NCBI GenBank assembly: GCA_003242035.1
Contig: QBMC01000020.1
Span: forward strand, 1 to 42,513
DNA length: 42,513 nucleotides
Direction of reading: 5' to 3'
Source: Nodosilinea foveolarum
GTDB taxonomy: Bacteria; Cyanobacteriota; Cyanobacteriia; Phormidesmidales; Phormidesmidaceae
The notes beneath the pieces were generated by a model. It was given only the letters and a program-made list of their open reading frames with translations, was not told the origin of the DNA and did no database searches. Below are positions 3,835 to 42,513 of the stretch, one piece after another. Both the position numbers and the translations under genes were made by a program. Numbering within the stretch: position 1 is the stretch's first letter; every line of letters begins with the position of its first letter.

Positions 3835-5991
3835 TTATTCAGCCGTTACCAGGTTTTTGGCCTTTAGTGAGTCTTCAATCGGGTTGGCCGCGCCGACTAA
3901 AGAAAGCAGTGGCCCCATTTGTTCTTGGCCGGTTAGTGCCAAATCGCTGTGGCACAGAAAAACCCGCTCTTTTGTCCGCCCTAGCAAATCTCGCAAGGTT
4001 CGGCTGAGCTGCGCTTCGTTGGCAACTTCAGTTTCGGCTAGCGTAATCGGTCGGCCCTGCCAGTTTTGCTGAAAGATAGCCGCACCGAACATTTCACCGC
4101 TGCTCATGCCCCACAGTGGCGATCCGGCATCTAGCCAAAACTGCCAGCGGTGGCTCAGGCGCTGGGCGCGATATTGGTAAATCGTTGAAAGCGTGACGCC
4201 CTGTCGCTCTGTAGAGAGTGGCTTAACCGGATAGGGATTGGCAGAAACGGTGCCCTTTTGAAGAAGCTGAATGAAGCGGCCTACGTCGCTATCGGATTTA
4301 TCGGGAGCGGGATTACTGGCGATCGCTGAATAGAGCCGGATACGATTTTCTACTTCCCAAAAATACTGGGCCGTTTCCATCAGTTCGCGTAGGGTGGCGA
4401 GCTGGTCGTAAGGGAGATGATTGCCGCGCCAGAGAAAGTCTTGAACGATGCGGTCGATGGTGATGACGGGACTGGAGGTGAGGCGCTGGCGGCGAAGCTG
4501 CTTTTGGTCTTCGATCCATTTTAAGATCCGGCTGTAGGCGTTGACGGCCTGATGCCCGAGCCGATCCCAGCGGTCGAAGGTTTCGGCGGGCAGCAGGTGC
4601 GGATGCTCAATGTTGGTGATGAAGCAGGTATCGGCGATCAGTTCGGCGCGAACCGGATCGATGGCGACGAGGTCGAACCAGGGGATAGCGGCAGGTGCAA
4701 TAGGTTGAGGCTGAGTGTTTGGACTGGAGGCGGCGGATAGTCCTGAGGGGCTTTGGCTAAGGACGACTAGCATTTCGGCGATCGCATCTTGATCAACCAA
4801 CCTTCCTAACCCCGGATAAATCAGCGCCAGCAAAGACAATAAGGCCCGCACCATCGGCGAACTAACCAGCGGCCTCTGATCATTTAGCGACTCGATAGTA
4901 ATCCCACGATTGCCTAAAATTTCAATCAGGCTGTAGCGGCCAATGGCATCAAGGCCGGGGCCGATCACGGCAATCTCGTGAGGCTTTGCCTGCTCGGTCT
5001 CAATCGCATAGGCAATTACTTCCGCCGTTGTTCGCAGCATATGACCGCGCGAGGTTTCTTGAATCAGTGAAACCGGCTCGGGTAAGTCGGGCATCGCTAG
5101 CGGATCTTCGACCCATTCGGCAAAGCGGTTGCCATACATGCCTAGCGAGTCTTTTTGAGGGATGGCCAGCTCTAAGGTTTTTTCACACTGGTTGGCTAGG
5201 GGTCGCAATGCGGCAGGGTCTGCGCCGAGTCCGAGACGAATTTTGCCCTGTGGATTGAAGGTGAATAGACAGGGGCGCTTGGCGTTTAGGAAAACGGAGA
5301 ATAGCGGGTGGGCGATCGCGGGATATTCATCGACATCGTCTGCGAGCAGTCCGCTAAACCTTGAAAGTAGCTGGGCCTGATATTTTTCCATTGGCAGCAA
5401 ATGCCGCCAGTAGAGTGTACTGATAATGCCGTAGGTGAGCAGCCCGCGCTCCAGGCACCAGTCTTGCCATTCGCCTAGCGCTGCACTGACGGTCTCCCAA
5501 AGCGAAGCAGGCGCGATTGAACCTGGCATTCCTGCTTTCAATCGGCTGGAGATCTCTTCTAAGGGAATGCAGCCCTGTGCAGCTAGCTGCAAAAAGTCCA
5601 GGCTGCGGCGCACCATGCGCTGTTCTCGCCAGCCGTCTATCTGGAGGGTGGCATCGTCGAGGCGCGATCGCCAAAGCTGAGTGGCTAACGTCTGTTCGTT
5701 TTCGGGCCGCAGCTTAAGTGGGAACTGCGCTTTGAGGCCCATGGACTGCACGAGCAGAGGCCAGAAAAGGATCACTTCGTCTTGGATAAATCCAGCGGGA
5801 GTGGTGGTGAGGGTGGCGGTGCGATCGCTCAGCTCATCGGTCAGCCGATTGGCCAGCAGGATGCGATTGTCGCCATTGGCCGCGAACACAATAAACGGAT
5901 GACGCTGAGCCGCGCCTGTGTTTTGCGCAAAGGTGATAAGCTGCTGCGTTTTGCCGCTGCGAGTCGGGCCAGATACCCAAAAGGATGCCAT
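3835..5991 (-). CDS. Degenerate UvrD/AddB-like ATPase, cyanobacterial family
   Basis: A 718-aa protein beginning with a clear Walker A, GPTRSGKT at residues 8-15. A Walker-B-like LLADDVDEYP lies near residue 240. The middle has a UvrD-domain-like stretch (HEIAVIGPG, then RPLVSSPMVRALLSLLAL), and a helicase-motif-V-like GVTLSTIYQYRA occurs near residue 610. This order fits a superfamily I helicase fold as in RecB/AddB/UvrD. Other motifs are weak, and the AddB C-terminal nuclease motif and Fe-S cysteines are not seen. It is probably a cyanobacterial family often named only as recombinase or helicase-like. No partner nuclease or addA is adjacent. A role in DNA repair is inferred from fold only. 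Confidence 0.6.
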   Translation of the reverse strand: MASFWVSGPTRSGKTQQLITFAQNTGAAQRHPFIVFAANGDNRILLANRLTDELSDRTATLTTTPAGFIQDEVILFWPLLVQSMGLKAQFPLKLRPENEQTLATQLWRSRLDDATLQIDGWREQRMVRRSLDFLQLAAQGCIPLEEISSRLKAGMPGSIAPASLWETVSAALGEWQDWCLERGLLTYGIISTLYWRHLLPMEKYQAQLLSRFSGLLADDVDEYPAIAHPLFSVFLNAKRPCLFTFNPQGKIRLGLGADPAALRPLANQCEKTLELAIPQKDSLGMYGNRFAEWVEDPLAMPDLPEPVSLIQETSRGHMLRTTAEVIAYAIETEQAKPHEIAVIGPGLDAIGRYSLIEILGNRGITIESLNDQRPLVSSPMVRALLSLLALIYPGLGRLVDQDAIAEMLVVLSQSPSGLSAASSPNTQPQPIAPAAIPWFDLVAIDPVRAELIADTCFITNIEHPHLLPAETFDRWDRLGHQAVNAYSRILKWIEDQKQLRRQRLTSSPVITIDRIVQDFLWRGNHLPYDQLATLRELMETAQYFWEVENRIRLYSAIASNPAPDKSDSDVGRFIQLLQKGTVSANPYPVKPLSTERQGVTLSTIYQYRAQRLSHRWQFWLDAGSPLWGMSSGEMFGAAIFQQNWQGRPITLAETEVANEAQLSRTLRDLLGRTKERVFLCHSDLALTGQEQMGPLLSLVGAANPIEDSLKAKNLVTAE

Positions 5992-39601: not shown

Positions 39602-40894
39602 ATGGATCCAAAGATAATTTTTTACGTCGTATTCGGTTCGGCGCTGCTCGGATTTACCTGGTTGCCAACGGTTCGAGGCGCTCGATTTATTAATGTGCCG
39701 CTGCTGTATTCTTTGCTGGCGGTTGTCTTATTTAGTCAGCTTACCGATCTGCCGCTGCTCGATCCGATTAACAATAAGACGCACACTATAGTGACGGAAT
39801 ATGTCACTGAGATTATTGTTATTATTTCGCTGGCAGGTGCAGGTCTGGCCATTGATCGGCGGTTTCGGTTTAGCACCTGGCAATCTACGCTGCGGCTGCT
39901 AGGCTTTTCGATGCCGATTTGTATTGCGGGTGCGGCCTTTCTCGGGCATTGGATTTTTGGTCTGTCATTGACCGATTCGGTTTTGCTAGGAGCCTGTTTA
40001 GCCCCTACCGACCCGGTGATGGCTCATAGCGTTCAGGTGGGGCCTCCGAACAAAGGGGGCGAAGATCCCACCCGGTTTGCGCTGACGACTGAGGCCGGAC
40101 TGAATGACGGGTTGGCTTTTCCCTTTGTTTACCTGGCGATCAGGCTCGCTGAGCACAACGGCACCTTTGGGAGTTGGTTAGTTGGCTGGGCGGCGTACGA
40201 TTTAGTATTTAGAGTGGTGATGGGAACGGTCGTCGGCGTTGTCATTGGCTTGCTGTTGGCTCACTATGCTTTTCGGGTATCGGATGAAACAGAGCGCGAA
40301 GAGACCAGCGAGGGATTGTTCATTATGGCGTCTATTTTCTTGGCGTACGGCGTTGGAGAAGCCCTGCATGGCTATGGATTTTTAGCGGTGTTTGCGGCGG
40401 CGGTGGCTACTCGACAGAATATTGAAAAGCATCACGAGTATTTCGCTAAGCCCTATCAATTTGCAACTCAGCTAGAGCGTATTTTGGCGGGGCTGTTATT
40501 AATTGCACTGGGCGGATTTATCGCCCGCGCGGATCTAGGGCTATTGACTTGGCAAAACTTTGCCTTCGCAGCGCTGTTTATGCTGTTGGTCAGGCCGATT
40601 TCTGGACTGCTTGCTTTGATGGGAACAAAGCTTTCCTTGCTGGAGAAGAGCGCGATCTCTTTTCTAGGCATTCGTGGCTTTGGTTCGTTTTACTATTTGG
40701 CGTATGCTCAAACTCATGCCACCTTCGAGAACGTCAATTTGCTCTGGAGCAAATTGACGCTGACGGTACTACTCTCTTTGCTGATTCACGGCAATTCAGC
40801 GACGATTGCTATGAACTGGATTGACGAGCAGCAGCGCAACCGGCGGAACTCGCGAGGGCGACGACGGAAAAAAGTCCGTCCAGAATCGTCGTAG
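39602..40894 (+). CDS. Na+/H+ antiporter, CPA1 family (NhaP-like)
   Basis: Integral membrane antiporter of 430 aa with about twelve hydrophobic helices. Ion-site motifs are visible: CLAPTDPVMAHSVQVG and TEAGLNDGLAFPFVYLAIRL, the latter with the conserved Asn-Asp pair. The end is a short basic cytoplasmic tail (RRNSRGRRRKKVRP). The role is sodium or potassium/proton exchange for pH and salt balance. The stop codon (40892-40894) abuts the stop of the convergent gene (40895-40897), with no base between. Confidence 0.92.
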   Translation: MDPKIIFYVVFGSALLGFTWLPTVRGARFINVPLLYSLLAVVLFSQLTDLPLLDPINNKTHTIVTEYVTEIIVIISLAGAGLAIDRRFRFSTWQSTLRLLGFSMPICIAGAAFLGHWIFGLSLTDSVLLGACLAPTDPVMAHSVQVGPPNKGGEDPTRFALTTEAGLNDGLAFPFVYLAIRLAEHNGTFGSWLVGWAAYDLVFRVVMGTVVGVVIGLLLAHYAFRVSDETEREETSEGLFIMASIFLAYGVGEALHGYGFLAVFAAAVATRQNIEKHHEYFAKPYQFATQLERILAGLLLIALGGFIARADLGLLTWQNFAFAALFMLLVRPISGLLALMGTKLSLLEKSAISFLGIRGFGSFYYLAYAQTHATFENVNLLWSKLTLTVLLSLLIHGNSATIAMNWIDEQQRNRRNSRGRRRKKVRPESS

Positions 40895-41581
40895 CTAGGT
40901 CATACGGCTAGCGACTAGCGTTTGATTCTGTTCTAGTGAGAGCTGCAAGTCTGAAAGCTGAGTGAGGTAGTCTTTAATCTTTTTAGCTTCTTTTTGCGCA
41001 GTGACTTGGCGATGAAGGGCGGCTCTAGCTAGGTCTTCTCGGTCTTTTGCTAATGCTTTTTGCGCGACCCGGTGCCAAGTAAAGGCGTCTTCGGTGGCCT
41101 GATTATATTGAGGTAAGAGGGTTTGAGTGGCGATCGCGATATTACTCAGCGCCTCTTGAAAAAGCCGCATAGTTTTCGCCGGAGACTCGTTCTGCGCAGC
41201 GCGATTGGCTAAGTCTGAAACCTGGGGCTGCCTAATTTGGTCTAGCCGTAGGCCAAAGTTATCGAGCTGTTCGCAATCGCTGTCTCCGGTCTTGCACCAG
41301 TTGGCAAAGTGCTCGCAGTTGTTAAAAAATAAATCGTACTGGCGCTCGCCCAAGCGACTTTCGGCCCGATCTATCACAATATCTGCAATAAAGGCCGTTG
41401 GCTGGCTTTTGGTGTATACCCGACCGCCCCTAGCAAAAGAATCTCTTGAGGTTCGCGCAATTGCCGCCTCGCCCGACTTGCTGTAGTGAATCACCGTACT
41501 ATCGCCGCAGTCTATGCCGTGGTGCTCGTAGGGAATGCCCATAATTTCTCGAATGGCATATATCTGATCTCCTCTGGCCAT
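40895..41581 (-). CDS. LRAT-domain protein with PspA-like C-terminal helices
   Basis: A 228-aa protein with two parts. Residues 1-98 are an LRAT/NlpC-P60-type acyltransferase or hydrolase: catalytic His20 (EHHGIDCGD), His32 (VIHYSK) and Cys89 in the signature NNCEHFANWC, all present. Residues ~166-228 are a charged coiled coil (HRVAQKALAKDREDLARAAL, HRQVTAQKEAKKIKDYL) that resembles the PspA/IM30 helical repeat, where AL.KG.EDLARAAL is a hallmark. The middle (100-165) is helical. It is last in a minus-strand cluster behind two FHA genes, 74 bases apart. LRAT proteins act on lipids; together with PspA-like helices this suggests a membrane-lipid target. That is an inference. Confidence 0.82.
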   Translation of the reverse strand: MARGDQIYAIREIMGIPYEHHGIDCGDSTVIHYSKSGEAAIARTSRDSFARGGRVYTKSQPTAFIADIVIDRAESRLGERQYDLFFNNCEHFANWCKTGDSDCEQLDNFGLRLDQIRQPQVSDLANRAAQNESPAKTMRLFQEALSNIAIATQTLLPQYNQATEDAFTWHRVAQKALAKDREDLARAALHRQVTAQKEAKKIKDYLTQLSDLQLSLEQNQTLVASRMT

Positions 41582-41655
41582 AGGTTTCGCGAAATGCAGT
41601 TGGCTCTAAGCGTATCCTACGCACCGGCCTTTCGATATCGCTCTGAGGGCTTTTT

Positions 41656-42057
41656 CTAAGCGTTTTCCTTAACAACCGCTCTGCCCCGTGCCTGCTGTTT
41701 AGCGATCAGCGCATGGATAGAGGACATGCCTTTGGTTTGCTGTACTACGTTGATTTGAATATTGGGGCCAGAGCGAGCGAGACGAATGACTAAGCCGTCC
41801 TGCACAGGCTTACTTTCGATCCGTTCTCCGGCTAAAAAGGTGCCGTTGGTGCCGGTGTTATGAATCTCCCAGCCGTCTTCGGTTTGCCGTAGCTCTACGT
41901 GATGGCGAGAGACTACGGCGCTGTAAAGCACCACATCGTTATTGACCGAGCGCCCGATGCGAACGATGGGTTCTTCTTCAAAAGTCCAGCTTTGCACGGG
42001 CGTTTTGTCGATGGGATGGAGCAAAGAGAGGGTGATGACGTTATTTAATGTGGACAC
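41656..42057 (-). CDS. FHA-domain protein, 133 aa
   Basis: A phosphothreonine-binding forkhead-associated domain at ~25-105. The core motifs are present: RIGRSVNNDVVL (Gly-Arg), VSRHHVEL (Ser and His) and the NTGTNGTFLAG loop (Asn-Gly). A C-terminal helix with IHALIAKQQARGR follows. The start is GTG at 42057; no ATG is near. It lies 73 bases after the first FHA gene and 74 before the LRAT gene, all on the same strand. FHA proteins read Ser/Thr kinase marks; the kinase is not in the window. Confidence 0.88.
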   Translation of the reverse strand: MSTLNNVITLSLLHPIDKTPVQSWTFEEEPIVRIGRSVNNDVVLYSAVVSRHHVELRQTEDGWEIHNTGTNGTFLAGERIESKPVQDGLVIRLARSGPNIQINVVQQTKGMSSIHALIAKQQARGRAVVKENA

Positions 42058-42130
42058 AGCACAACACCAGAGAGGGGTTACAACGGCAGTCTGGCTTTAT
42101 TGGGTGAAGTGCCTGCCATTGTTAGACCCT

Positions 42131-42513
42131 TTAGCTGGCGGCTTCGAAAATAAAACTGACTTTATCGCCTTTGCCAAGAGCAATGCGATCGCCTGGACGC
42201 AGCCGATGCCGATTACCCGCTGGAAGGGGTAATCCATTGACGTAGGTTCCGTTGGAGCTGCCAACATCTTCTATATAGTAGACATCGCCTTCTACGCGAA
42301 GGTTGGCATGTGTCCGGGAAACAATCTCTGAGTCTGGAAATCCAGACACGTCAATGTCGGGCGGCGTTTGATCATTAGGTTTCCCAATCCGGACTACAGA
42401 TAGCTGCCTGGGAAGCTCGATAGGCGTATCGGTTTGGACATGGCGCAGGCGAACGCTAAGGGTTTGAAGCTGGGTGACCATGGGCCGCGCTGCCGGGGGT
42501 GGTTGAACAGCGG
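42131..42513 (-). CDS. FHA-domain protein, 5' end beyond the window
   Basis: At least 116 aa: an FHA domain with RIGKPNDQ, SRTHANLRVEG and SSNGTYVNGLPLP, and RLRPGDRIALGKGDKVSF. An ATG at 42481 opens the frame, but the frame stays open upstream to the window edge (AVQPPPAARPMVTQ), a Pro/Ala-rich linker in frame. So the true protein is probably longer and the part seen is its C-terminal domain. Zinc-ribbon plus Pro-rich linker plus FHA is a known cyanobacterial form; the zinc ribbon would lie outside. It is the first gene seen of the FHA-FHA-LRAT cluster. Confidence 0.85.
   Translation of the reverse strand, partial: AVQPPPAARPMVTQLQTLSVRLRHVQTDTPIELPRQLSVVRIGKPNDQTPPDIDVSGFPDSEIVSRTHANLRVEGDVYYIEDVGSSNGTYVNGLPLPAGNRHRLRPGDRIALGKGDKVSFIFEAAS

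Follow-up and report, generated by a model that had tools for sequence, protein, structure and literature searches.

The end of this contig of Nodosilinea foveolarum raises the question of whether three neighbouring genes, two for FHA-domain proteins (here FHA1 and FHA2) and one for an LRAT-type enzyme with a PspA/Vipp1-like part, belong to one pathway, and whether a kinase controls it. The window, meaning the whole stretch of DNA analysed (42,513 nt), corresponds to C122 among the 299 contigs of the genome, and its terminus is a contig end. ORF calling places three minus-strand ORFs there, at 40895–41581, 41656–42057 and 42131 to beyond 42511, separated by gaps of 74 bases (41582–41655) and 73 bases (42058–42130); the same-strand arrangement and the spacing agree with the original description, as does everything else that it states about the sequence. 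A CPA1-type cation/proton antiporter gene (39602–40894) converges on the LRAT gene, the two stop codons directly abutting (40892–40894 and 40895–40897). The features of the locus are as follows.

40895–41581, minus strand: gene for the LRAT/Vipp1-hairpin hybrid, 228 aa (ORF, Pfam, conservation, AF2 model)
41279–41581, minus strand: LRAT domain of the hybrid, residues 1–101 (PF04970, 2.3e-23)
41522–41524, 41486–41488 and 41315–41317, minus strand: predicted catalytic His20, His32 and Cys89 (NCEHF motif), respectively (conservation, HRASLS2 alignment)
40901–41182, minus strand: hairpin of Vipp1 alpha1-alpha2 type, two long helices, residues 134–178 and 182–227 (profile, AF2 model)
41656–42057, minus strand: FHA2, stand-alone FHA protein, 133 aa, GTG start (ORF, Pfam)
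41779–41964, minus strand: FHA domain of FHA2, residues 32–93 (PF00498, 1.3e-17)
42131–42513, minus strand: C-terminal part of FHA1, FraH-type; its zinc ribbons and Pro-rich linker lie on C169 at 4087–4589 (profile, joined contigs)
42173–42391, minus strand: FHA domain of FHA1 (PF00498, 4.4e-18); the ‘GR’ Arg is Lys, codon 42380–42382
42498–42513, no strand assigned: contig-end overlap of 16 bp, reading CCGCTGTTCAACCACC on the minus strand, common only to the window and the end of C169, the contig that carries pgl and the FHA1 N-terminus

The cluster had been expected to run off the window, and it does. A search of the same genome with a full-length relative of FHA1 located the N-terminus on contig C169, which is 4589 bases long and terminates inside FHA1. 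The last 16 bases of C169 are those of the window end, and genome-wide this 16-mer occurs at those two ends only. The joined FHA1 is one protein of 289 aa with two zinc ribbons, a Pro/Ala-rich linker and an FHA domain. The gene that precedes it on C169 is pgl, encoding 6-phosphogluconolactonase (PF01182, 1.9e-71; TIGR01198), with its stop 96 bases upstream of FHA1. The suggestion that kinase or phosphatase genes lie upstream was not borne out: pgl occupies the position directly upstream of FHA1, which rules out a kinase, PP2C or PspA gene there. As read from the joined contigs, the completed row is pgl, the FraH-type protein, FHA2 and the LRAT/Vipp1-hairpin hybrid, and the window holds its distal part. 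pgl is probably a housekeeping neighbour, an unrelated gene that leads the row. Promoters or terminators of individual genes within the two gaps would have spoken against a single unit; a consensus scan found no minus-strand site in them, a weak result because the counts equal the shuffled background.

FraH (Alr1603) of Anabaena sp. PCC 7120 consists of a double zinc ribbon, a Pro-rich linker and a C-terminal FHA domain, and FHA1 of the window has this architecture. A homologue at locus L003 matches DZR (4.3e-12) and FHA (5.4e-17) in Pfam. The context is also shared in part: Nostoc-like genomes and Calothrix brevissima NIES-22 have pgl directly upstream of FraH; in these, however, neither FHA2 nor LRAT follows downstream, and in three of them an M50B peptidase is next. 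Architecture and pgl context thus fit FraH, and FHA1 is described here as FraH-type, a putative orthologue. In Anabaena, FraH is required for the reorganisation of internal membranes in heterocysts; the fraH null mutant lacks the honeycomb thylakoid membranes, and overexpression leads to condensed thylakoids (PMC11500504). The zinc-ribbon N-terminus of a FraH-type protein (L003:6665–6838) matches the N-terminus of the NCBIfam Ser/Thr phosphatase model PRK14559 (E 3e-7), hinting at a module shared with that model.

Both FHA proteins had been called phosphothreonine readers, and the description holds for one of them by its residues. FHA2 has the canonical phosphothreonine-binding residues G35, R36, S50, R51, H53, N71 and G72 in 52 of 52 aligned sequences. 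In FHA1 the arginine of ‘GR’ is replaced by Lys in all 55 relatives, with Ser-Arg-x-His and Asn-Gly-Thr retained. Given this invariant Lys, FHA1 is at most a candidate phosphothreonine reader; it may not be an ordinary one, as the Arg-to-Lys change could weaken binding. The FHA domains are alignable to GarA, OdhI and Rv1747, but the small FHA regulators of the GarA/OdhI/FhaA type have other partners and another architecture, and FHA1 departs from them in having Lys for the conserved Arg.

The PF04970 match of the enzyme scores 83.2 bits against a curated cut-off of 24.3, and the three residues that it was said to keep, His20, His32 and Cys89, vary in none of the 70 relatives. In an alignment with HRASLS2 (PLAAT) they fall on its two histidines and on the cysteine of its NCEHF motif. 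An AF2 model (mean pLDDT 80; pTM 0.55, at which the relative placement of PLAAT domain and hairpin is not confident) gives the N-terminus a permuted papain-like fold, with Z 13.8 and rmsd 1.8 over 94 residues to 4dot. The hybrid thus shares fold, His-His-Cys triad and NCEHF motif with the PLAAT/HRASLS phospholipase A/acyltransferases. It differs from them in its C-terminus, a Vipp1-type helical hairpin instead of the PLAAT C-terminal region, and in its occurrence in cyanobacteria, whose main lipids are MGDG, DGDG, SQDG and PG. Phosphatidylcholine is generally absent from cyanobacteria, which makes PG or glycolipids likelier substrates. The hybrid is predicted to be a lipid-modifying, PLAAT-like Cys/His thiol enzyme, with both activity and substrate putative. 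No other LRAT gene was found in this genome. An LRAT domain with a different partner, a GUN4-like tetrapyrrole-binding domain, is found in the heterocystous Calothrix brevissima NIES-22 (L019:8001–8990). The Euglena respiratory complex I subunit NDUEG7 (8iuf chain E7) equals the PLAATs in its match to the LRAT domain (Z 13.9).

The PspA/Vipp1-like part predicted in the LRAT gene was confirmed as a hairpin: the family profile of the hybrid matches Vipp1 residues 23–128 with an E-value of 5e-11. In the AF2 model, two helices of about 45 residues each align to 7o3w with Z 10.0 (VIA-align), a value that is common for long helices, so that this match would be weak by itself. PspA_IM30 (PF04012) scores 26.2 bits in the window hybrid, below its cut-off of 33.9, and 36.4 bits, above it, in the relative at L067. 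Ring and rod assembly by Vipp1/PspA needs the amphipathic N-terminal alpha0 as well as alpha4-6. The hybrid has LRAT in place of alpha0 and stops after the hairpin, helix 2 ending at residue 227 of 228, so that alpha4-6 are also absent; it is therefore homologous to Vipp1 over the hairpin but is not itself a Vipp1/PspA, and two true PspA/Vipp1 genes lie elsewhere in the genome. Across genomes the hybrid has pgl, FHA genes and lineage-specific genes as neighbours. Among the selected neighbours scanned against Pfam, none of the classical partners of a Psp operon (PspB/PspC/PspF, Lia, toastrack) was seen; anti-phage defence was set aside, with no PADLOC match. A PspA_IM30-NlpC/P60 fusion reported in 2024, AFZ52345.1, apparently has the same two-domain architecture, and lipid modification was predicted for it too (PMC11237479). 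That report differs in leaving FHA unmentioned, in drawing no link to FraH or a pseudokinase, and in naming phosphatidylcholine as the predicted target, which is unlikely in cyanobacteria.

The reading favoured here, which we consider about evenly poised between right and wrong, is that the row encodes a membrane-remodelling module around FraH in which a lipid-modifying thiol enzyme is brought into position; phospho-input, if any, would come from kinases at other loci. The Vipp1-derived hairpin would dock the hybrid on Vipp1/PspA assemblies or on membranes shaped by them, and the two true PspA/Vipp1 genes of this genome could supply its partners. As scaffolds, the FraH-type protein and FHA2 would position the enzyme at membrane sites or gate it there, FHA2 possibly by reading a phosphothreonine that a kinase from another locus has produced. 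The hybrid would form an acyl-thioester and deacylate or transacylate membrane glycerolipids, so that the module may change curvature and lipid make-up locally while internal membranes are remodelled, for which Anabaena heterocysts need FraH. The basis for this proposal is at the sequence level: gene order, domains, conservation of the triad, homology of the hairpin and the repeated degeneration or absence of the kinase. Against it, enzyme activity, lipid substrate and protein contacts are all predictions and the LRAT-FraH linkage is partial. Vipp1 is a thylakoid membrane-remodelling relative of ESCRT-III, and in a more specific and rather doubtful version the FHA scaffolds, one of a family often fused to a pseudokinase, would bring an acyl-transferase on an ESCRT-III/Vipp1 hairpin to the thylakoid or plasma membrane, where it would co-assemble with Vipp1 and edit lipids within the polymer.

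Comparison of gene order bore out the expectation of conserved linkage among the three families, as the row recurs across cyanobacterial families. In the family of the window, nearly all rows read pgl, FHA1, FHA2, LRAT. This order is also found in families f3, f24 and f25 with an extra C-terminal domain on FHA2, and likewise in f4 with no visible pgl. Median gaps are 82 bp between FHA1 and FHA2 and 44 bp between FHA2 and LRAT. Recurrence of orthologous gene order in many genomes excludes a chance arrangement. FHA1 and LRAT lie within 5 kb of each other in 42 of the 70 genomes where both are listed, and are distant or on separate contigs in the other 28. Of 388 genomes at class level, 277 have a FraH-type protein and 190 an LRAT match, some of the latter to the LRAT part only.

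Conservation of the row could also mean co-transcription with no shared function. The strongest alternative, plausible though unlikely, is that the genes are simply co-transcribed behind pgl, the hybrid being a lone lipid-repair or turnover enzyme and the FHA proteins serving other partners. LRAT-hybrid homologues do occur outside the row in many families, and the pgl-FHA1 adjacency is broader than the link to LRAT, extending to the f32 genomes and to Calothrix brevissima NIES-22 (L138). LRAT is absent from the FraH row in the Nostoc-like genomes examined (L138, L150–L152), so FraH does not need LRAT there, and it is in this very group that the function of FraH has been investigated. However, the linkage is repeated in the distant families f1, f3, f4, f24 and f25, FHA2 and LRAT stand together by themselves in f7 and f17, and pgl-FHA2-LRAT occurs with no FHA1 at L016 and L018. 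The repeated linkage and the rows lacking FHA1 suggest that the FHA2-LRAT pair is kept together. Around these rows, an M50B-type peptidase gene (L106:7161–7931, L150:6648–7388, L096 and L122) adjoins FraH in f32 genomes and lies between FHA2(-kinase) and LRAT in some f24 and f3 genomes; it is a possible further member of the module. In genus g13 of family f1, some 20 or more genomes have the LRAT hybrid and no FraH-type match.

A second and quite improbable alternative is that the LRAT domain works as an amidase, a peptidase or a lipoprotein N-acyltransferase of the LnsA/YiiX-like permuted NlpC/P60 kind, acting on proteins or acylated proteins and not on bulk lipids. Permuted NlpC/P60 enzymes are diverse in function; LnsA N-acylates lipoproteins (PMC7387801), and YiiX/BcPPNE have been proposed to cleave fatty-acid amides (PMC3142127). 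The nearest solved structures by both profile and fold are nevertheless PLAAT phospholipases, the Vipp1 hairpin points to membranes, and no partner transporter was seen.

FHA2 bears on the original prediction of a kinase-controlled pathway. In seven other families (f3, f4, f6, f15, f24, f25 and f26) FHA2 continues into a Hanks-type Ser/Thr kinase domain (at L062, PF00069 1.8e-30), so a kinase connection does exist in the wider group, but the domain is mostly degenerate and is missing from FHA2 in the family of the window. The fusion was compared in 33 distinct genomes, after removal of two duplicates from 35 rows: all three catalytic residues (beta3 Lys, HRD Asp and DFG Asp) persist in 10, and one or more is gone in the other 23. 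An impression from 15 members that the fused kinase is always a pseudokinase is ruled out by those 10. Degenerate kinases make up 14 of the 15 beside an LRAT gene, these 14 having lost the HRD or DFG aspartate, versus 9 of 18 elsewhere (Fisher p 0.009, only suggestive because related genomes are non-independent). The tree, which is unrooted, needs at least five gains or losses of the kinase domain. In f24, rows lacking the kinase branch from within rows that have it, which favours some losses. Genome G028 apparently has two FHA2 genes (contigs C14 and C19; L064 and L179), a kinase-fused one that adjoins FHA1 and has all catalytic residues, and a lone one that adjoins LRAT. Active kinase, pseudokinase and FHA alone in one syntenic gene make a clean case in which to study the decay or loss of a kinase domain within an operon.

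With the fused kinase degenerate in most lineages and absent here, local kinase control is unsupported in this genome, and a stress pathway with a dedicated kinase phosphorylating the components and the FHA proteins as switches of the enzyme is decidedly unlikely, given 14 of 15 LRAT-linked kinases with a lost aspartate and no kinase on FHA2 or upstream of the row in the family of the window, even though the fusion occurs in seven families and 10 of 33 genomes keep all three catalytic residues. Elsewhere in the genome, 19 kinase domains score over the Pfam family cut-off, all outside the cluster, and phosphorylation in trans is therefore still possible under the favoured reading of a FraH module that positions a lipid-modifying enzyme.

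Each of the protein families is known, and the hybrid architecture is apparently known too (PMC11237479). No description of the conserved FraH, FHA(-pseudokinase) and LRAT/Vipp1-hairpin row was found in the openly licensed literature, which is weak evidence of absence because only such papers were covered. Many filamentous cyanobacteria have a conserved row of a FraH-type protein, FHA2 (in other families joined to a kinase that is mostly dead) and the hybrid. The locus supplies candidate partners for FraH: an FHA-(pseudo)kinase, and a lipid enzyme that carries part of Vipp1. Three possible elements of the mode of action of FraH, namely co-assembly, lipid editing and phospho-gating, are thereby open to direct tests.
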